Source: Clostridiaceae bacterium BL-3 (GTDB lineage Bacteria; Bacillota; Clostridia; Clostridiales; Clostridiaceae). From it: a stretch of DNA of 64,000 nt. Under the pieces are notes generated by a model. It had not been told where the DNA came from and searched no databases. It saw nothing but the letters and a program-made list of their open reading frames with translations. Position numbers and translations under genes: made by a program. Every line of letters begins with the position of its first letter. The first letter of the stretch is position 1. The stretch covers positions 2,666,001-2,730,000 of the forward strand of contig CADDXC010000001.1 in NCBI GenBank assembly GCA_902809985.1, written 5' to 3'. Shown here piece after piece: positions 23,542 through 33,302 of this stretch.

Positions 23542-24768
23542 CTAATTTCTAAATATGCTGCCGGTCTGTTCTTTAAACATTTTATAAGCTTCCAGTGCCT
23601 CCGCAGCCTGTTCAGTAGAAAGAGGATCATACACATTCTGCTTATTATAGCTGAATCCTCCATCTTTTAATTTATAACTTAAAAGTTCATCTATCAGGTT
23701 TTTGTTGTTTTTCGTAAATTCACTGCCTGTAGGATCTATTCCATTACTGCAGAGAGCTATGATAACCTGAGATAAACTCTGGCTGTTCTCTACACCCATA
23801 GAGGAATATCCTGCATCACTGCCCTGCATGGAGGAAAGTTTTGCAATTCCGGCATCTACGACCTGCTTCACATCTTCTCTATCTCTATACGGTGCCAGAG
23901 CTGTGAGTGCCATAGATGTCATATCTGTATCCGCTTTATTACTCGTAATACTCCATCCATTATCCTCTGTCCTGGCAGATACTATTTTATCTATGAATTT
24001 ATCTCTACTAACAAGGGCATCATTTGGCACGTCAAAATTTCCAGAATCCAAAGCTATAAGACCAAATATATAGGCATTTATACCCTGGTTATCCATGCCG
24101 GCATTATTGTATATTTTTTCTACCAGATTATATCCTCCAAAACTTGTAGAATCCTTGCCCAGTAATGATAGGACAATTACCATTCTCTCATAATCCGTAG
24201 GGGCAAAAGAATCGGCTTGTGATGAAGTCAGGCTGTTTTCAAAAGAAGTCCAATAACTTGGGGGAACTTCCTCTCCACATCTATATACCACCAATGCTTG
24301 CCAATCATCTTGGATCCCATCTTTTAAAATTTTATTCACAGTTGCATCAAGTGTACTTTCCACCTGAGACTTATAATTATAATCTTGAGATACAGAGCTC
24401 AATTCGAAAGTGTATTTAAGACTACTTTTTAAATACCTGCTTTCTGAAGAATGAACTCCATTTCCTACATTTAAAGAATAAACTTCCCCCTGCTTATATC
24501 CGCCTTCCGGAGCATCTACCTTTACTTTGCTGCTGTCAAGTAATTTTATACTGACATTTACTAAATTTCCTTTACTGTCCGTTACAGTTATGGCATTTTT
24601 GGTCTGATCATCAAAACCCACAGGTTGACTAAATTTTATAGTCCATGATCTATTAGGATCAGTTATAGTTTTATCTACAGAAGCCGCTTTCACAAGCAGC
24701 GGTTGAACCAATAGTATTGAAGTCACAGCCGTGCTTAAAACGGCATACTTTATCTTTGATCTTAACAT
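23542..24768 (-). CDS. Secreted alpha-barrel (prenyltransferase/squalene-cyclase-repeat) protein of B12 operon
   Basis: This 408-residue protein has a signal peptide (residues 1-28, ending VKAAS), an Ig/Big-like region (about 30-125, SWTIKFSQPVGFDDQTKN) and an alpha-alpha barrel domain (about 140-400) with squalene-cyclase-type repeats such as DTDMTSMALTALAPY and GINAYIFGLIALDSG. The same domain makes up the alpha domain of vertebrate intrinsic factor and transcobalamin. It is the last gene of the riboswitch-controlled operon. A corrinoid-binding role is inferred from the domain and context. Confidence 0.8.
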   Translation of the reverse strand: MLRSKIKYAVLSTAVTSILLVQPLLVKAASVDKTITDPNRSWTIKFSQPVGFDDQTKNAITVTDSKGNLVNVSIKLLDSSKVKVDAPEGGYKQGEVYSLNVGNGVHSSESRYLKSSLKYTFELSSVSQDYNYKSQVESTLDATVNKILKDGIQDDWQALVVYRCGEEVPPSYWTSFENSLTSSQADSFAPTDYERMVIVLSLLGKDSTSFGGYNLVEKIYNNAGMDNQGINAYIFGLIALDSGNFDVPNDALVSRDKFIDKIVSARTEDNGWSITSNKADTDMTSMALTALAPYRDREDVKQVVDAGIAKLSSMQGSDAGYSSMGVENSQSLSQVIIALCSNGIDPTGSEFTKNNKNLIDELLSYKLKDGGFSYNKQNVYDPLSTEQAAEALEAYKMFKEQTGSIFRN

Positions 24769-24816
24769 TTTACATTTCCCCCCATATACAATTATTTAAC
24801 AAATATAATCTAATCG

Positions 24817-25515
24817 TTACATACCATTTTTAACATACTTCCAAATCACAGAATCCCCACTCTTCAACACATATTGTCCACTTCCTATATTGGCCTTTAC
24901 AAATTGGGACTGTCCTTTTTTCTTCACATAATAACACCATCCGGACATGGGTCCTTCTGCCCTCTCTTTCAGCCCATTTATATCTGAGAAATAAATTGTA
25001 GAACCAGTTCCCTTTGTTGTGTAACTTATCTTGACTCCATCAAGAACCTTTTGAGTTACATATCCTACGGTTTGTCCATCTATACCATTCAAATTTTTTT
25101 GTAAAACAACTCTATTTCCATGAGCTTCATCAATAATCTCAATAGAAGACTGCTCTACCGACTTTTGAGAACTAGCACCGGGTGCACTGGAATTTTGTGA
25201 AGAACCACCTTGAGTTGAAGAAGTCTGTCCAGTTTTGCTGTTTACCTTTGAAGCTCCATCTAAACTGCTGGAAGCAGAATTTTTAGACGATTTGCTGGAG
25301 ACAGCAGGATTTCCCTTTTCATCTTTAGCACCACTTTGGCTTTTCCCAGCTTGAGCTGTACTATTTGACTTATTTTGGGCTTTCTCTGCACTTGCCTGTT
25401 TATTTGAAATAGTGCTGGTATATACGTTCTGAGCCTTGATCGCAAGCGCAAATATAACAGCGCATACCACAACAGCAGATACAATTATTATATACTTTTT
25501 CTTTTTATTCTTCAT
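24817..25515 (-). CDS. Membrane-anchored DUF4430 (transcobalamin beta-domain-like) protein
   Basis: About 232 residues: an N-terminal membrane anchor (IIIVSAVVVCAVIFALAIKA), a long Ser/Lys/Gln-rich low-complexity linker (about 35-125), then a DUF4430 domain with DGVKISYTTKGTGSTIYFSD, SGWCYYVKKKGQS and SGDSVIWKYV. DUF4430 is the C-terminal beta domain of transcobalamin and intrinsic factor. The ATG at 25515 is preferred to the one at 25524, which abuts the ribosome site. It overlaps the S-component gene. It is probably a surface binding subunit that feeds the ECF transporter. Confidence 0.8.
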   Translation of the reverse strand: MKNKKKKYIIIVSAVVVCAVIFALAIKAQNVYTSTISNKQASAEKAQNKSNSTAQAGKSQSGAKDEKGNPAVSSKSSKNSASSSLDGASKVNSKTGQTSSTQGGSSQNSSAPGASSQKSVEQSSIEIIDEAHGNRVVLQKNLNGIDGQTVGYVTQKVLDGVKISYTTKGTGSTIYFSDINGLKERAEGPMSGWCYYVKKKGQSQFVKANIGSGQYVLKSGDSVIWKYVKNGM

Positions 25516-26221
25516 TAATTTCATCTCCCTTTTTAGTATTCATGTAACTTATAATCAATCTCCTATTATAGCGCTGAAGCACCGGTAAAAACCTCTTGTA
25601 AAATATAACTGAAAACACAAAAGAGCTGATTCCATGGAGAATATCAAAAGTCAATCCCGAAGCATAAGCAGCTAAAATTGAGCCTAAGTTTATAGGTTTT
25701 ACGAAAGCCAATATATACTGAATGTTCATAATCCAGTCAAACATAAAGCCAAACAAAAAACACAGAATTGAGAATTTAAAAGTTGAAATTTTTCTGCCGC
25801 TCTTCCCCAATATCCCTGAAATGATTCCCACAAGCCCCCAGGAAAACATCTGCCAGGGAGTCCAGGGTCCCTGACCAAAAAATATATTGGATAAAAATGC
25901 AGTAGTGCTTCCAATTAAAAATCCCTCATAAGATCCAAATACAAAGCCAGAAATTGCCACTAAAAAAGTAACCGGTTGTATATTTGGAGCAGCAGCAAAT
26001 ACTATTCTGGAAACAGCTGCAAATGCACTTAAAGTAGCTATTATAGCAATTTCCTTAGTACCTGAGTGACTTTTTTCAAAATAGAAATAACTCATAAAAA
26101 GTATTGCAAAAACACTCACAGTGCATATAAGTGAAACTCCTGTTTGAAAATTACTTCTAACCGTAAGTGCCATTAGCACTATGATTATAAGAGAAGTAAC
26201 TACAATAATAAATTTTTTCAT
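25505..26221 (-). CDS. ECF transporter S component (predicted cobalamin/corrinoid-related)
   Basis: This protein of about 238 residues has six or more membrane helices and S-component features: IIATLSAFAAVSRIVFAAAP (the ECF-like start), PVTFLVAISGFVFGSYEGFL and GQGPWTPWQMFSWGLVGIIS. S components bind the vitamin and dock on the EcfT-EcfA module. Substrate cannot be read from sequence; the cobalamin riboswitch and DUF4430 partners point to a corrinoid or B12 precursor. The start ATG overlaps the EcfA stop by four bases (ATGA). Confidence 0.85.
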   Translation of the reverse strand: MKKFIIVVTSLIIIVLMALTVRSNFQTGVSLICTVSVFAILFMSYFYFEKSHSGTKEIAIIATLSAFAAVSRIVFAAAPNIQPVTFLVAISGFVFGSYEGFLIGSTTAFLSNIFFGQGPWTPWQMFSWGLVGIISGILGKSGRKISTFKFSILCFLFGFMFDWIMNIQYILAFVKPINLGSILAAYASGLTFDILHGISSFVFSVIFYKRFLPVLQRYNRRLIISYMNTKKGDEINEE

Positions 26222-27852
26222 ATTGAACACCTTTCAATGGCTTCTTCCAGGGTAAATATACTATCATCCTTATCCCTCAACAATTTGTTCATGGAAGTTG
26301 TATAAAATATTCCATCTCCCAATACCTGCCTCTTATTTCCGTCTGCCACAATTCTCCCATTGAACATAATCATGTATCTTCTGCAAAAATTACTGGCAAA
26401 ATCTGTATCATGAGTCACCAAAATAATGGAAGTACCCTTTCTATTGAGATTTTGAAGTAATTTCCCCAATTTGTTTTTAAGTCCACTCTCAAGGCCTCTC
26501 GTTGGCTCATCCAGTAGAATCATATCAGGCTGTAATACAAGTATGGAGGCTATGGCTACCCTCTGACGCTGACCGCCGCTTAAATCCCTTGGGTTTTTAT
26601 CCTTCAGATCATATATTTCAAGTTCTTTTAAAACGCTATTCACTATTTTCTCATCATATATCCCATAATTGTCCATGGTAAATTTAACTTCTTCGTAAAC
26701 ACTGTCCTTTGACAAATAATCATTGGGATTTTGAGATATATATCCTATATGTCTGGCTATCTGCCTTATATCCATTTTCGAAGTATCTTCTCCATAGAGC
26801 CTTATGATGCCTTCATGCTCCACAAGTCCCAGAATAGTTTTTAAGAGAGTGCTTTTTCCGGCACCGTTGGCTCCCAATATTGCAATAAATTCACCATTTT
26901 CCACAGTAAAATTTATATCTCTCAAAACTTGTTTAGAGCCATATTTACAATTTAATTTGTTTACAGAAATCACTTCTTTGTCATTATTCTGGAATTCAGC
27001 AGCAGCAACTTCATTTCCTGATTTTACATTCAATGAGCTGTTTAGAATTTCCACCCGGGCGTCTTTAAAATTTTGCGGCATTTTATTAAAATTCATTTTT
27101 TTAAAGAACTTGAGATAATCGGGCATAAACATAAATTGTCTTTTATTACAATTATAATAAAAATCTCTCTTATCTTCAAATAACTCCAAAGTCCCATCAT
27201 TCATGATAGCTATGGAATCCACAGTATCAAACCACCTGTTCACTCTCTGCTCTATGACTATTATGGTTATTCCGAGTTCTTCATTTATTTTTTTAGTTAT
27301 ATTCAGCATTTCTTCTGCAGAAGAGGGATCCAGCTGTGAAGTTGGTTCATCCAGTATTATACAATCCGGCATATATACAAGGGCAGAGGCCACTGCCACT
27401 TTCTGTTTTTCCCCTCCTGACAGGGAAGCAATATCTCTATCAGCAAGATGAAGTATTCCCGAAAATTGAAGTGCCTCATAAACTCTCCTCTTGATCACAT
27501 CTTCATCCACTCCTATATTCTCCAGTCCAAATGCTACTTCCCTGTGGACTCTATTCATCATAAGCTGTTTTTCAGGATCTTGAAATACCATGGTTACCTT
27601 TTCTGCTCTTTCCCTATGGCTCATATCTTTTAAATATTTTCCACCTATTTTTATTTCCCCGCCTATGGTACCGCCATAAAAATTAGGTACTGTACCAACT
27701 ATTGCCCTGGCAAGAGTCGATTTTCCAGATCCCGATCTTCCTGCTATTAACAGAAAATCATTTTTTTCTAACTGTAAATTTATATTTTTTAAAGACCTCT
27801 CTTTTTCCATAGGATAAGTAAAATTCAAATCCTTAATCTCTATATATGCCAT
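26218..27852 (-). CDS. ECF transporter fused double ATPase (EcfA-EcfA')
   Basis: This 544-residue protein has two ABC ATPase domains. The first (about 1-240) has Walker A AGRSGSGKST and LSGGEKQKVAVASALVYMPD; the second (about 290-530) has LGANGAGKST and LSGGQRQRVAIASILVLQPD. It powers the adjacent S and T membrane subunits. Fused A-A' chains are found in dedicated (group I-like) ECF systems, in keeping with a transporter committed to one substrate. It overlaps both neighbours, so the operon is tightly coupled. Confidence 0.93.
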   Translation of the reverse strand: MAYIEIKDLNFTYPMEKERSLKNINLQLEKNDFLLIAGRSGSGKSTLARAIVGTVPNFYGGTIGGEIKIGGKYLKDMSHRERAEKVTMVFQDPEKQLMMNRVHREVAFGLENIGVDEDVIKRRVYEALQFSGILHLADRDIASLSGGEKQKVAVASALVYMPDCIILDEPTSQLDPSSAEEMLNITKKINEELGITIIVIEQRVNRWFDTVDSIAIMNDGTLELFEDKRDFYYNCNKRQFMFMPDYLKFFKKMNFNKMPQNFKDARVEILNSSLNVKSGNEVAAAEFQNNDKEVISVNKLNCKYGSKQVLRDINFTVENGEFIAILGANGAGKSTLLKTILGLVEHEGIIRLYGEDTSKMDIRQIARHIGYISQNPNDYLSKDSVYEEVKFTMDNYGIYDEKIVNSVLKELEIYDLKDKNPRDLSGGQRQRVAIASILVLQPDMILLDEPTRGLESGLKNKLGKLLQNLNRKGTSIILVTHDTDFASNFCRRYMIMFNGRIVADGNKRQVLGDGIFYTTSMNKLLRDKDDSIFTLEEAIERCSI

Positions 27853-28741
27853 ACTTTTTCTCCTCGCCGTTCAATATTACAGTTAATGAAATAGCTACTA
27901 TAAAGGCAAAAATTACAGCTATTCCGATGTTGATGAAATTCACAATGGTTACACCATCATATATGTTAAATTGCACCCATCCTTTAAACTGTGCTGTTCC
28001 ATAAAATATAATAAGGGCAGTACTCAAAGCTATTATCTCCCAGTCCCTCGCTTTAAATTTCTGCCTTTCATAGACACTTCTGCTTCCGCTTAAAAATCCT
28101 CTGACATAGGCTGCCTCACCTATGTTAAAAGAGCCTTCCATGGAATCCTCAAGAAGTATGGACATCACAGGAATATAACTTGCAGCTTTTTCTCTGGCTT
28201 TTTTCTTGTCAAACATCACACCTCTTACCTCATATATTTCCTTTAAATTTCTAAATCTATCCTTCATACTGGGTATGAGCTTGAAACTTATCATGAGCAT
28301 GAGAGTGGATTTGGGCATTATGGATGAAAAATAGGAAACTGCCCTGTCAGAATCAACCATAAGCTCGAGTATTATAAAAAGATAGATTACCGCCAGAAAT
28401 TTAAGGGACATCACCAGGGCATATATAAATGCCTCCAGTGTAAATCTTCTATTAAACAGATAAAACAGTGTTGTTCTTCCGGAACTCACAAAGAGTACAT
28501 TCAGCAAAATTATAAAAAAAGCAATTGGGAAGAAATAGTACAGTGCCGTTTTGAATTTGTGCTTTTCACTGCAAAACACCGCAATAAACAGGATAAAGAC
28601 ATATACAGATGACAGTATCACCGGGTTGTCGTTGGAAAATATTATTACCATCATGGACATGAAAACCACAGAAGCGGTCAGCACGTGGTACTGTTTAAAA
28701 TCAATGAAATACCTGGATTTTTCTTCATCTTTATAAGTCAT
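27833..28741 (-). CDS. ECF transporter transmembrane component EcfT
   Basis: This 302-residue membrane protein has about six to seven helices. Two coupling-helix motifs are recognisable: KEIYEVRGVMF (A-R-G like) and GEAAYVRGFLSG, which contact the ATPases. It overlaps the ATPase gene by 20 bases. A 12-base-stem hairpin lies 35 bases upstream, between it and the large surface-protein gene. Confidence 0.9.
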   Translation of the reverse strand: MTYKDEEKSRYFIDFKQYHVLTASVVFMSMMVIIFSNDNPVILSSVYVFILFIAVFCSEKHKFKTALYYFFPIAFFIILLNVLFVSSGRTTLFYLFNRRFTLEAFIYALVMSLKFLAVIYLFIILELMVDSDRAVSYFSSIMPKSTLMLMISFKLIPSMKDRFRNLKEIYEVRGVMFDKKKAREKAASYIPVMSILLEDSMEGSFNIGEAAYVRGFLSGSRSVYERQKFKARDWEIIALSTALIIFYGTAQFKGWVQFNIYDGVTIVNFINIGIAVIFAFIVAISLTVILNGEEKKYGIYRD

Positions 28742-28765
28742 GGATATTCACTTCCTTGTCAGCTG

Positions 28766-28807
28766 TTTAAAGAATGGCCGCAATCCCGAATAACAGCCAT
28801 TCTTTAA
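28766..28807 (-). other. Hairpin between the surface-protein gene and ecfT
   Basis: The 12-bp stem TTAAAGAATGGC/GCCATTCTTTAA (28766-28778 and 28796-28807) has a 17-base loop. No T run follows on the minus strand, so it is more likely an mRNA processing or stability element, or a partial attenuator, than a full terminator. Confidence 0.45.
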
Positions 28808-28822
28808 GTATTCCCTAAAATG

Positions 28823-30976
28823 CTATTTTGCATTAACCGTAACCGTACATTTTACCGGTTGGGCATGTGTATTGTACTGAGGTTTCACAGTTATAGTTGC
28901 AATTCCCACACTTACTGCCTTCACTTTTCCGTCTGCATCCACTGCAACAACATCAGGTTTATCACTTTCCCAAACCAACGCTTCAGTTGCATTATCAGGG
29001 CTTATAGTTGGAGTTAATTTTAAAGTTTCCTCTTCTTTTAATGTTGCCTGAGTTTTATCCAGTGTTATGGAATCCACAGGAATATCAGTATTATGAACAT
29101 CCGCAAAATTCTTGTATACAGAACCCTTTCCATCTTTAAAAAGCTTGTAATCAGCAAGAGCCCTTAATCCTTGTTCTGTAGCAGAAGAATCCGTTGTCTG
29201 GTTGGAACCCCATGGACTCCAAAATCCAGTATTGTCACTTACTGCAAATTTAAGAAGAGCACTTATGGCATTTCCACCGTTCTTTATAAATCTAGCGTCT
29301 GAAGCAGGATCTATTCCATTGTCACAAATACCTATTATAGCCATCGCCACACTATTTGGATTCTCAGGATTTTCAGCTCCGACATCTCCTTGGCTGTAAG
29401 TGAACCCACCGTCTTCTCTCTGCATGGAAGAAAGTTTATCTACAGCAGCATCTACAGCTGACTTAACATCTTCCTCGTCTTTATAAGGAGCCAGAGCCGA
29501 AATCGCCATAGAAGTCATATCCGTATCTGCACTGTCCCCCCAATAAGTCCATCCTTTATCATTTGTCCTACAATCTAAAATCTTGTCTACGAGTTTATCT
29601 CTTGTCCATTTTGATCCCTCAGGCACCGAAAAATCTGCTGAATCCAATGCTATTAAAGCATATACATAAGCACCAATACCTTGTTCTTCCATAGATTGCT
29701 CATCATAGTCATATATCTTTTCCACCAGATTCTGTCCTGCAAAATTTGTTGGATTTCCTCCTGATGCCACTATTCCAATGACAGTTCTGGCATAATCAGT
29801 AGGCTGTTTTAAAACTTTATCTGGACTATTTTCTATTTTCTCTTCAAGATCTGTAAGATAATTAGACGGAATTGTTTTCCCAAGTTTATTTAATTCCATA
29901 ACTGTCCAATCATCTGGAGATGAAGATATTTCTGAAGTTATCCCATTTACAAGATTATTTATATCAGTATTATAATCCACAAAATTCTTGTATACAGAAC
30001 CTCTCCCCTGGTTAAACAGTTTACAAGCTGCCAATGCCCTGAGCCCCTGTTCAGTAGCGTAAGAATCTGCTGTTTTTATTATATTCCCACTTTCATCAGT
30101 ATTCCAAGGATTCCAGAATCCAGAATTATCAACCACTTTGAAACTTTTAAGTGCATCCATAGGATTTTGCTCATTTTTTATAAATGCACTATCTTTAACT
30201 GGATCTATCCCATTATCACAAAGACCTATTATCACCATTTCCACACTGTTTGGATTTTCTACTCCCCAGCTTGCAAATCCACCATCTTCACTTTGCATGG
30301 AAGAAAGCTTGTCTATAGCAGTATCAACATCTGATTCTACATCTTCTCTGCTTTTATAAGGTGCAAGAGCGGAGATTGCCATGGAAGTCATATCAGGGTC
30401 TGCAGTATCTCCCTGATAGGTCCATCCACCATCGCCTGTTCTATAACTCAAAATCTTGTTTACAAGGTTTTGCCTTGTCCAGTTTGCTTTATCAGGTATT
30501 GAAAAATTTGATGAATCCAAAGCTAGAAGTGCAAATACAGCACCATTAGCACCGGAATCATCCATCGCTTGAGGATCATAATCATATATTTTCTCCACCA
30601 GATTCTGTCCCGCAAAATTTGTAGGATCTCCTCCTGCCGCCACTACTCCGATAACAGTTCTGGCATAATCAGTAGGCTGTTTTAAAACTTCACCCGGATT
30701 ATTTTTTATTTTCTGTTCAAGATTTGTAAGATAATCAGATGGAATTGGTTTGCTAAGTTTATTTAATTCCATAACTGTCCAATCATCTGGCGTGGAAGAT
30801 ACTTTTGAAGTTATACCGCTTACAAGACTATCTATATCAGATTCATAATCACTATAACCTTTTCCCTGTCCTTCTACGGTAATTGAACAGCTAGCAGTTT
30901 TTCCACTGTTTTTAGTAGTAACTGTTATAGTTGCACTGCCCTGTCCAACAGCTGTTACCACTCCATTGGAATCCAC
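28823..30976 (-). pseudogene. C-terminal part of the giant B12-type surface protein, after an in-frame stop
   Basis: About 717 codons continue, in the same frame and the same Ig-like (Big_2) domain, from the gene upstream after one TAA. Contents in order: the rest of Big_2 (SNGVVTAVGQGSATITV), two tandem alpha-alpha-barrel domains of about 300 residues each (repeats such as DPDMTSMAISALAPY, DTDMTSMAISALAPY, SYATEQGLRALA), and a final Big_2 domain (GKVKAVSVGIATITVKP). The GTG at 30976 has no ribosome site, so this part is probably untranslated unless the stop is read through or is an error in this sequence. Reading frames beyond it are intact, so the break is recent. Confidence 0.75.
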
Positions 30977-30985
30977 TGTAGCTTT

Positions 30986-32860
30986 TTAATCGTCACTGCT
31001 TGACCAAGTTACATTTTTATTGGAAGCCTCATCAGGTTCTACAGTGGCTTTTAATCTCAATATATTTCCCTGTGCCATCGTAACTTTCGAAGTGTTCAAT
31101 GTCACACCTGTAACATCTATAGTAGAACTGCCGCCTCCACCACCGGAAGATACATTAACTGTCTTAGTAACACTTCCCTTATCCTGCCCGCTATCTTTTT
31201 CCGCTTTTACTTCATAAGATCCAGACGTATTTATAGTTATATCTGCATTTCCGTTTTGATCTGTAGTACTACCTGTAGATTTACCATCTACACTTATAGC
31301 CCCACCATAAACAGGTTTCCCAGCACAAGTAAATTTCACCGAAAATGATTTTCCAGATTGAATGGAATCAGGAATACTTAAACTCAATGGAACAGCAGTA
31401 GTACCAGGATCCATCAGATCATGCCAGTCCCACTTATGATAATCAAGGTTCAAGGTACTTCCAGGCTGGATATTTACACTTTGAATACCTGCTCCAGAAC
31501 GACTTCCATTCAAATATATAAACCAGTCAACCCCATAATATCCTGCTTTCCTATCCGAATTCGTCAACCCTTCTATAGATACAGAAGAATTGCCATCTAT
31601 CCCAGTTATGAATCCAGATTTTTCAGTTACATTTGCCATGGTTTTAAGATAATCAAGAGCATTTTTACTATTGTCTATATCAAAAACCTTCTGTTTAATA
31701 ATAGTTCCATTATCCCGGCTAATAACAAGAGTAAAAGTGTTGCCAGTTGTAGGGATAACAACTCCTCCACCGCCTCCTGTACCCGGCTTGGTTTCATCTC
31801 CTATACCGCCGCTGGTGGATTCTCCATTGAAATAACGAACCAGATCGTCCAAAATCACAGCTGGAACTACCGCAATTCCGCCTAATGCAATAATAACGGT
31901 TTTATCTGACATGTTCTCTTTTAAAAAATCCGCTGTTTTCGAAGCAACAGTATTGTCGGTCAAAACAACAGGTGCAGATTCTGTAGCTGCAAGAGCTGAT
32001 CCGGAAAGCGCATCTGCAAACTCATCCCCATTAGGTCCATTTCCCCTTGCCACATACACATTGCTAAAATTAAGATCGGATTTAAAATTCTGAAGCACGG
32101 CCAGGTTTGTATCAAACCTGGTGTCACCCCCAAGTCTTACAGCATTCGTAAGAGAAGATTCCAGGTTGCTGGATATGACTCCAGTACCGCCTATTATGTA
32201 AGTTTTTTCTATATTTCTGTTTTTCAAGTAATTTTTCACTGCCTGTGGAAGAGCATCGCTTTGTGACAGCAATATGGGCATTCCCTTTTTAGCAGCTATT
32301 GCAGCTATTGAAAGGCTGTCAGCATAGCCGCTTCCAGATGCAACTACAATATTGCTGACATTTTCCAATTCTTCTGCTATTTTCACAGAGGTCTCATACC
32401 TATCTTGTCCACCTAATCTTTTCACAACGCTGACACCAATATCTTTTAGCTGCGATTCCACATTATCAGATAAAGAACCTGTTCCACCAATCACAAATGC
32501 CCTATCCACTTTGAGCCTTTTAAGTTCTTTTATAGTTTCATCATCCAGCGAACCCTGTCTTGAAAGTATTATAGGAGCATTATATTTTTTTGCAAGAGGT
32601 GCTGCACAGAGAGCATCTGCATAGCCATATCCCTGGGCTATAACAGCAGTAGCTGCACCATATTTCCATCCCTCCTGACTTATTTTTAAGGATGTTTCTA
32701 TTCTGTCCTCTCCCCAAAGCCTGTTTTCATTTGCAGTTGTACTCATATTGCCGGCACTGCTTGAATCCGCATATACATTTCCAGTGAATCCTGATAAAGC
32801 AATGCCAATTACAAACAAAAGCATGACAATTTTGCCGATAATTTTTTTCATACCTTTCAT
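30986..32860 (-). CDS. Cell-wall-anchored CWB2 / DUF4430 / Ig-like surface protein (N-terminal part)
   Basis: These 624 residues precede a TAA. Order: signal peptide (about 1-32), three cell-wall-binding type 2 repeats (about 45-345, with NRLWGEDRIETSLKIS and VKRLGGQDRYETSVKIAEEL), a Gly-rich linker, a DUF4430 domain (about 375-490, YYGVDWFIYLNGSRSGAG), an Ig-like domain (about 495-580), and the first half of a Big_2 domain. CWB2 repeats hold proteins on clostridial cell wall polymer; DUF4430 is transcobalamin-like. With the downstream part it would be a protein of about 1,345 residues. It is the first gene after the cobalamin riboswitch. Confidence 0.85.
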   Translation of the reverse strand: MKGMKKIIGKIVMLLFVIGIALSGFTGNVYADSSSAGNMSTTANENRLWGEDRIETSLKISQEGWKYGAATAVIAQGYGYADALCAAPLAKKYNAPIILSRQGSLDDETIKELKRLKVDRAFVIGGTGSLSDNVESQLKDIGVSVVKRLGGQDRYETSVKIAEELENVSNIVVASGSGYADSLSIAAIAAKKGMPILLSQSDALPQAVKNYLKNRNIEKTYIIGGTGVISSNLESSLTNAVRLGGDTRFDTNLAVLQNFKSDLNFSNVYVARGNGPNGDEFADALSGSALAATESAPVVLTDNTVASKTADFLKENMSDKTVIIALGGIAVVPAVILDDLVRYFNGESTSGGIGDETKPGTGGGGGVVIPTTGNTFTLVISRDNGTIIKQKVFDIDNSKNALDYLKTMANVTEKSGFITGIDGNSSVSIEGLTNSDRKAGYYGVDWFIYLNGSRSGAGIQSVNIQPGSTLNLDYHKWDWHDLMDPGTTAVPLSLSIPDSIQSGKSFSVKFTCAGKPVYGGAISVDGKSTGSTTDQNGNADITINTSGSYEVKAEKDSGQDKGSVTKTVNVSSGGGGGSSTIDVTGVTLNTSKVTMAQGNILRLKATVEPDEASNKNVTWSSSDD

Positions 32861-32902
32861 ATCATAATCCCTCCCCTAAATAAAAGATCAAATCAATTCC
32901 AA

Positions 32903-32926
32903 TAATAAAAGGATCCCTAAGGATCC
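32903..32926 (-). terminator. Riboswitch terminator, copy 1
   Basis: GGATCC...GGATCC hairpin (32911-32926) followed on the minus strand by TTTTATTATT, between the cobalamin aptamer and the surface-protein gene. It is the likely OFF platform. Confidence 0.75.
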
Positions 32927-33023
32927 CGCTATTTACATTCAATTATGGCTGCTTATATATATCTTAGCAATAAAAAACAATTTAATAAAATGTATCATGT
33001 TTCCCTCCGAAAAATCAACAAAA

Positions 33024-33178
33024 TGTCAGGCAGGCTTCCTGGCTCAGATTCATTTTACTCCCTTATCTTCCCAGATATATTACCAGTGATACAAACAAGG
33101 TTTCATCCTCCATACAGTAGCGGTGGGACTGCAGTATTTTCTATACTTTTCCTTTTAAATATTTAAAACATCACCTAA
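33024..33178 (-). promoter_or_regulatory. Cobalamin riboswitch (copy 1)
   Basis: On the minus strand the conserved elements appear in order: TTAGGTGATG, AAAAGGAAAAG, the central core ACCGCTACTGTATGGAGGATG, a TCACTGG segment, CTGGGAAGATAAGG, and the B12-box AGCCAGGAAGCCTGCCTG. It is followed by a terminator and the surface-protein gene, so it should repress the corrinoid operon when adenosylcobalamin is plentiful. Confidence 0.92.
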
Positions 33179-33302
33179 CATCAAATATTAAATTTTACAA
33201 ATTATCTGCTGCTCTTACCGTTAAGTATAAGATATAAATTTTATTCAGTCAATATATTCAATTAAATAGAATTCGTAAAAGAGAAATGGATTACACTTCA
33301 TT

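Follow-up and report, generated by a model that had tools for sequence, protein, structure and literature searches.

What does an operon headed by a cobalamin riboswitch accomplish when it joins a complete energy-coupling factor (ECF) transporter to extracytoplasmic proteins built of DUF4430 and alpha-barrel domains? The operon in question lies on the minus strand of Clostridiaceae bacterium BL-3 (GCA_902809985.1, contig CADDXC010000001.1), at positions 23542..33178 of the 64,000-nt stretch that we analysed (the window; 2,666,001-2,730,000 of the forward strand). We consider it likely that the operon encodes a B12-repressed corrinoid import system in which DUF4430 serves as the extracytoplasmic binding part.

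A preliminary description, made by a model from the sequence alone, had placed a cobalamin riboswitch ahead of a CWB2-anchored DUF4430/double-barrel protein, a full ECF transporter (S component, T component and fused A-A' ATPase), a membrane DUF4430 protein and a secreted alpha-barrel protein. The riboswitch, the three transporter genes (by Pfam, NCBIfam and phmmer) and the two smaller proteins were all recovered as follows:

33224..33252, minus strand: sigma-70-type promoter-like site, TTGACT-17-TATACT (consensus scan, 10/12 matches)
33012..33193, minus strand: cobalamin riboswitch aptamer (Rfam RF00174, 79.2 bits, cutoff 31.5, E 7.6e-18)
32910..32927, minus strand: terminator-like hairpin, putative expression platform, between the aptamer and the first ATG at 32860 (scan and reading of the sequence)
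30986..32860, minus strand: wall-anchored protein, 624 aa, with hydrophobic N-terminus, three CWB2 domains, DUF4430 and partial Big_2, ending at an in-frame TAA (open reading frame, Pfam, hydropathy; signal peptide by eye)
31433..31663, minus strand: DUF4430 domain of the wall protein (Pfam PF14478, E 4.9e-6; same position in the genome search)
30986..30988, minus strand: in-frame TAA splitting the first gene in the present assembly (reading of the open frame)
28823..30976, minus strand: remainder of the first gene, 717 aa, with two alpha-barrels (29984-30847 and 29108-29974) and Big_2 (open reading frame, Pfam, barrel profile)
27833..28741, minus strand: EcfT transmembrane component (Pfam CbiQ, E 1.7e-8)
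26218..27852, minus strand: fused EcfA-EcfA' ATPase (two ABC_tran stretches, E 6.2e-64; NCBIfam TIGR04520 and TIGR04521 above cutoff)
25505..26230, minus strand: CbrT-like ECF S component (phmmer to PDB 6fnp_A, E 1.7e-11)
24817..25524, minus strand: DUF4430 protein, 235 aa, with N-terminal membrane anchor and polar linker (Pfam PF14478, E 3e-8; hydropathy 3.04 at residue 11)
23542..24768, minus strand: secreted Big_5 and alpha-barrel protein, 408 aa (Pfam; signal peptide by eye; AlphaFold2 barrel model, pLDDT 96)

Read 5' to 3', the genes follow the order CWB2-DUF4430 protein, two-barrel frame, EcfT, fused EcfA-A', S component, membrane DUF4430 protein and secreted barrel, so that EcfT, two ATPase domains and an S component are encoded together behind an RF00174 aptamer that sits in the leader on the operon's own strand. 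The promoter call is weak, since five such sites were seen in the region against 3.3 (standard deviation 1.8) in shuffles; terminator-like sites numbered two against 0.2, and the one at 32910..32927 lies on the operon strand. The grouping is more than chance: the gene set recurs elsewhere, and a search of the 3.86-Mb genome for DUF4430 gave just two matches, each of them inside the operon.

As to the substrate, the S component is homologous over 166 residues to the biochemically characterised CbrT of L. delbrueckii, its best match among PDB sequences (the next has E 0.15), and both proteins carry the stretches PNxQPVT and SNIFxGxGxWT; CbrT itself was reportedly predicted in a paper of 2009. 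When a profile of S relatives was run against six S genes taken as CbrT-type, the scores ranged from 83 to 308 bits; for the CblT-like S of L. plantarum pMF1298-5 the score was -3 bits. Both cobalamin and cobinamide are substrates of ECF-CbrT, and the L. delbrueckii system, once purified, transports in proteoliposomes (PMC5997447, in the part available). Other host genes headed by cobalamin riboswitches are BtuF-like, CbiM-like and CobQ-like (labels by eye), and the genome matches CbiG and CbiZ. CbiM-like genes presumably serve cobalt uptake. Given CbiG, CbiZ and the other riboswitch-headed genes, the role of the system in BL-3 is probably corrinoid salvage rather than a strict need.

A search of genome contigs with the S component met at least 591 relatives, of which the top 80 were retained; these gave 78 loci, which were scored by profiles built in the present analysis (that for DUF4430 being home-made). 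DUF4430 was detected in 69 of them, the barrel in 58, EcfT in 72 and the ATPase profile in 60, and the Pfam DUF4430 model agreed with our profile in 17 of 21 barrel-DUF4430 fusion segments and in all nine surface proteins scanned. Eight of the nine loci devoid of DUF4430 are truncated at the cluster by a contig end, L017 being the true exception. The order of the cluster (wall protein, small DUF4430, EcfT, ATPase, S) is stable in Paenibacillus, Moorella, Desulfosporosinus and others. Clostridium loci place the small DUF4430 gene after S and the wall protein ahead of EcfT, a second Clostridium group has a DUF4430-barrel protein after S instead of the wall protein before EcfT, and two archaeal metagenome-assembled genomes (MAGs; L042, L073) follow the order DUF4430, EcfT, ATPase, S. 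Wall anchors vary among the nine surface proteins by Pfam: SLH in L044, L028, L038, L082, L048 and L058, CWB2 in L053, LPXTG in L069 and Cu_amine_oxidN1 in L027.

Three side observations concern these relatives. In the MAG of a close relative (L012, 5792-9013) a CoA-transferase gene is followed directly by the ECF ATPase, and no EcfT, wall protein or riboswitch was detected at the locus (a deletion or an assembly collapse). Three Streptomyces plasmid records carry an S relative. Both barrel frames of the window (28826-30976 and 23545-24768, minus strand) match NCBIfam NF053823, the SCO2321 family membrane protein, far under its cutoff, a similarity that hints at a Streptomyces counterpart.

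The preliminary description had suggested looking in other genomes for the same gene set behind cobalamin riboswitches, and had named regular control by unrelated riboswitches as what would speak against it. A covariance model built from 18 leaders (10 of the 78 loci contributed training sequences) gave 63 matches at E <=0.5 in the window and the 78 loci, and placed a cobalamin riboswitch within 800 nt upstream in 44 of the 57 loci where the cluster start is visible. One of the 44 is weak (L018, 25 bits, E 6.7e-4), and a 45th was counted by hand (L020, whose riboswitch is overlapped by an open frame). At the background rate (at least 189 riboswitches in 138.6 Mb of 40 genomes, a rate that may be low), 0.04 of the 57 would be expected within 1000 nt on the same strand, with loci treated as independent. 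The Rfam model confirmed the riboswitch in all eight loci re-scanned, and in 17 loci scanned with Rfam (these eight and nine negatives) no other riboswitch was detected upstream of the cluster. Tandem cobalamin riboswitches precede the cluster in L028, L039, L053, L054, L059 and L077 (Rfam confirms L028 and L053).

The association of DUF4430 with CbrT is also visible in Lactobacillaceae, which we take to be the family of G035 (the genome of L045). With the 6fnp CbrT sequence as query, 46 of 397 genomes gave a match (L. delbrueckii itself is apparently absent from the set, the best identity being 67%), and the flanks of 27 of the 30 CbrT loci fetched contained a DUF4430 frame, the misses being L112, L117 and L119. 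DUF4430 was found in 122 of the 397 genomes, that is, in 45 of 46 with a CbrT match versus 77 of 351 without (Fisher p 3.7e-25, uncorrected for relatedness), and, the two lists being read against each other, at least 38 of the 46 have it no more than ~600 nt away from CbrT; G104, G225, G358 and G396 have no adjacent DUF4430, and G154, G275 and G429 fall beyond the matches listed. L096 (by Pfam) and L108 (by eye) present the order ribonucleotide reductase nrdJ, DUF4430 (~130 aa), CbrT and cobalamin adenosyltransferase, and the DUF4430 gene thereby stands where PMC5997447 (in the part available) has cbrS in its nrdJ-cbrS-cbrT-pduO cluster. By inference from these relatives, the cbrS of L. delbrueckii would be a DUF4430 gene. 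A lipobox-like GC was noticed by eye in 10 of 19 aligned nrdJ-linked DUF4430 proteins.

In the reverse direction we took 19 genomes that lack a close CbrT match and read 20 DUF4430 places in them, hand-picked rather than random. At 18 of them an S component matching the CbrT-type profile (at least 201 bits) lies nearby with EcfT and ATPase, five of the 18 having slight direct similarity to 6fnp (E 1e-5 to 1e-6). One of the remaining two, L129, adjoins diol dehydratase genes (Pfam), and diol dehydratase is adenosylcobalamin-dependent. Plasmids carry such sets as well: L. plantarum pLp900-2 has nrdJ, adenosyltransferase, DUF4430 and CbrT, and an L. curvatus plasmid copy has an LPXTG protein, DUF4430, EcfT, ATPase and S. 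On L. plantarum pMF1298-5 a gene annotated as fucose-binding lectin II (L091, 7614-8663) stands between CbrT and DUF4430; the label is doubtful because the gene resembles the L070 barrel gene in position and length, and Pfam gave no match for either of the two.

The kinship of the extracytoplasmic proteins with vertebrate B12 carriers calls for more nuance. The preliminary description held DUF4430 and the barrel to be the two halves of intrinsic factor and transcobalamin. TCN proteins do carry DUF4430 at the C terminus (PMC4350170, in the part available). PF14478 is present in both DUF4430 proteins of the window, and barrel-then-DUF4430 fusions in relatives (e.g., L048, L058, L068) reproduce the domain order of transcobalamin and intrinsic factor, an arrangement found on one chain in no protein of the operon in the window. 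InterPro names DUF4430 transcobalamin-like. The natural L048 fusion was modelled with a predicted local distance difference test score (pLDDT) of 90.4 and a predicted template modelling (TM) score of 0.72, and the top 15 matches in the PDB (E 7e-11 to 2e-9) are without exception chains from three related proteins, namely transcobalamin, intrinsic factor and haptocorrin, the next match having E 7.5e-5. Its DUF4430 half superposes on the transcobalamin beta-domain 5no0 with a TM score of 0.74 at 3.0 A. The window barrel gave mixed results: its model of pLDDT 96 matched diterpene cyclase, farnesyltransferase and transcobalamin at similar E-values. The barrel alone was therefore rejected as evidence for transcobalamin, its structure matches being mixed and cyclases coming first by sequence.

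For the DUF4430 domain taken singly, cobalamin binding is plausible by analogy with PDB 5np4, the title of which describes a complex of the transcobalamin beta-domain with cyanocobalamin. A profile built on the nrdJ-linked DUF4430 proteins found PDB 3u7z (E 0.0043) and no transcobalamin. That structure (RUMGNA_00854), labelled a putative metal binding protein, matches DUF4430 profiles weakly (E 0.33 and 0.0043) and might be a corrinoid-binding domain that has gone unrecognised. No match to the eukaryotic cobalamin-binding model of Pfam (PF01122) was obtained in the window proteins (E <=0.1), in the 21 barrel-DUF4430 segments (E <=0.01) or in the nine surface proteins (E <=0.001).

Corrinoid uptake, as the preliminary description suggested, finds support in the 44 riboswitch-headed loci, the CbrT-like S component, the DUF4430 genes that adjoin CbrT or B12 enzymes also where a riboswitch is missing, and the carrier-type domain order of the relatives' fusions with the fold of the one modelled; we hold it to be very probable. 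We infer from these parts that the extracytoplasmic proteins bind corrinoid, close on it across separate chains and relay it inwards. When intracellular cobalamin is plentiful, the riboswitch would turn the operon off (as the aptamer followed by a terminator-like hairpin suggests). When B12 is scarce, DUF4430 and alpha-barrel domains would be displayed on the wall via CWB2 and might raise the local corrinoid concentration, while the secreted barrel could shuttle or clamp corrinoid in the wall space. DUF4430 would act as the beta-domain and the barrel as the alpha-domain of a transcobalamin-type B12 clamp, with the halves mostly on separate chains in the operon. The membrane-tethered DUF4430 protein, as the putative extracytoplasmic binding subunit, would present its ligand to the S component of CbrT type, and import would be powered by EcfT together with EcfA-A'. 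The step from DUF4430 to S is one that we favour with some reserve. More tentatively, and at somewhat less than even chance, we put forward that DUF4430 is the extracytoplasmic corrinoid-binding subunit so far missing from the CbrT branch of ECF transporters and forms a split transcobalamin together with the barrel, and that the vertebrate carriers share ancestry with this bacterial clamp instead of being an independent invention.

Several observations weigh against a corrinoid importer with DUF4430 as its binding part. With L020 counted as positive, 12 of the 57 start-visible loci have no upstream cobalamin riboswitch (L012, L017, L031, L033, L042, L045, L049, L064, L070, L071, L073, L078), although a contig end truncates L031 and L064; in nine of the 12, Rfam found a Clostridiales-2 small RNA in L017, a distant opposite-strand T-box in L071 and nothing else. 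L017 has EcfT, ATPase and S with neither DUF4430 nor cobalamin riboswitch (its small RNA match, 1934-2015 on the plus strand, lies just upstream of EcfT). Only one of 20 Lactobacillaceae DUF4430 loci has a cobalamin riboswitch, so the signal there rests on gene neighbours; G058 has a CbrT match and no DUF4430, and L127 has DUF4430 without visible B12 context. The DUF4430 profile reached Transcobalamin-2 at E 0.14 and Transcobalamin-1 at 0.38 among PDB sequences, with the unrelated DegP above them, and the barrel profile was led by terpene cyclases, transcobalamin being absent among the 60 of 82 matches listed. The L048 fusion is a protein of a Paenibacillus MAG and not of the window, and its whole-chain superposition is poor (TM score 0.39-0.49, root-mean-square deviation ~21 A), so that its domains match singly and their mutual placement is not reproduced. 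The presence of CbiG means that the host may make B12 itself. As purified ECF-CbrT works in proteoliposomes, DUF4430 is unnecessary for transport in L. delbrueckii (PMC5997447, in the part available).

The first gene adds a further point of this kind and opens the strongest of the alternatives. Its CWB2-DUF4430 part and its two barrels share a frame, with the TAA at 30988-30986 between them; all the domains announced for the wall protein are there, and the one open frame is not. The C. luticellarii counterpart (L011) is a single open frame of 1539 aa without a stop, hence the single protein of the preliminary description is what C. luticellarii has, not what the present sequence encodes. Surface capture in BL-3 could consequently be decaying, a nonsense codon stripping the double barrel from the wall and leaving the importer with two small proteins. 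Besides the stop itself, the downstream piece (717 aa) has no hydrophobic N-terminus of its own, and the ratio of nonsynonymous to synonymous substitution rates versus L011 is higher after the stop (0.25) than before it (0.13). Both ratios, however, are well under 1, so both pieces look constrained and the stop would be recent or a sequence error; moreover, the genes of the membrane DUF4430 protein and the secreted barrel are intact and open, and C. magnum (L015) encodes its surface protein as two separate frames. We regard decay as unlikely.

A second alternative, which we find quite improbable, retains the ECF core as the B12 importer and makes DUF4430 and the barrel co-regulated modules for wall structure or protein-protein interaction that bind no corrinoid. 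It draws on the generic nature of the barrel fold (the model matches include terpene cyclases and farnesyltransferase, Pfam reads it as a prenyltransferase/cyclase toroid, and nine of the 21 fusion segments also match the TED domain of complement), as well as on CbrT transporting without partners in vitro (PMC5997447, in the part available). Against it stand the Lactobacillaceae, where DUF4430 is a ~130-aa protein adjoining CbrT in 27 of 30 loci (in both loci read gene by gene, its gene separates nrdJ from cbrT) and carries a lipobox-like GC in about half of those aligned, and the L048 fusion, whose E-values to vertebrate B12 carriers surpass those to any cyclase by four to six orders of magnitude. 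Less probable still is a B12-co-regulated substrate other than a corrinoid (cobalt, dimethylbenzimidazole, heme or another tetrapyrrole): a host cobalamin riboswitch does head the CbiM-like gene and an ECF heme transporter, LhaSTA, exists (PMC7299338, in the part available), but the S component matches CbrT and no other solved S component, its profile separates CbrT-type from CblT-like S as given above, and five of six Lactobacillaceae loci read have B12-enzyme or adenosyltransferase neighbours (L096, L108, L125, L142 and L129; not L127).

The surroundings of the operon hold a second cobalamin riboswitch (87.8 bits) with a terminator-like sequence seen by eye, which precedes a short frame and the gene of an HsdS-type specificity subunit, an odd pairing; neither hsdM nor hsdR occurs among the window neighbours scanned around the latter. 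Between the two riboswitches lies a gene of the acetyl-CoA hydrolase/transferase family, and another host cobalamin riboswitch (L009) also heads a CoA-transferase-like gene (by eye). The positions, with two further RNA features of the window, are:

36894-36695, minus strand: second cobalamin riboswitch
36317-35067, minus strand: HsdS-type specificity subunit gene
34631-33303, minus strand: acetyl-CoA hydrolase/transferase family gene
10945-10776, minus strand: M-box magnesium riboswitch (Rfam)
49633-49553, minus strand: pemK RNA (Rfam)

The ECF-CbrT core and the link of DUF4430 to the vertebrate carriers are already known (PMC4350170 for the latter, in the part available). The operon resembles ECF-CbrT of L. 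delbrueckii (6fnp) in its homologous S component, its EcfT and ATPase genes and the DUF4430 gene adjoining cbrT in related Lactobacillaceae, and differs in encoding its own fused A-A' and T components within a single operon, in its cobalamin riboswitch, and in the added wall, secreted and membrane-tethered transcobalamin-like proteins. With transcobalamin, intrinsic factor and haptocorrin it has in common the alpha-barrel and the DUF4430 beta-domain, which several relatives fuse in the vertebrate order (the fold likeness coming from one modelled fusion, L048), whereas the window's proteins carry the two halves separately or in the order DUF4430-then-barrels, are anchored to wall or membrane, and, like the relatives' proteins scanned, escape the Pfam eukaryotic model. 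BtuG of Bacteroides, the fold of which is said to be a beta-propeller, invites comparison by description. It is a surface B12 lipoprotein working with the outer-membrane transporter BtuB, and shares with the role predicted in BL-3 the capture of corrinoid at the surface to feed a transporter, the partner being a different one (PMC6143338, in the part available). The Isd proteins and LhaSTA of Staphylococcus lugdunensis likewise set wall-anchored binders beside an ECF importer of a large metal tetrapyrrole, but the substrate is heme, regulation is by iron, and LhaSTA functions independently of surface receptors (PMC7299338, in the part available). In the literature searched, which mostly left subscription journals aside, we found no account of DUF4430 or transcobalamin-like partners of a bacterial B12 ECF transporter.

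Descriptions of the ECF class assign substrate binding to the S component itself, and the system proposed here, if true, would be a case of an ECF transporter that cooperates with an extracytoplasmic protein dedicated to binding. Should DUF4430 mark corrinoid binding, a domain of unknown function would gain a function, many Gram-positive and some archaeal genomes would gain a recognisable B12 capture system, and both domains of human intrinsic factor and transcobalamin would have counterparts in bacteria engaged in the same task. It would further suggest that surface competition for B12 reaches beyond systems of the Bacteroides type.

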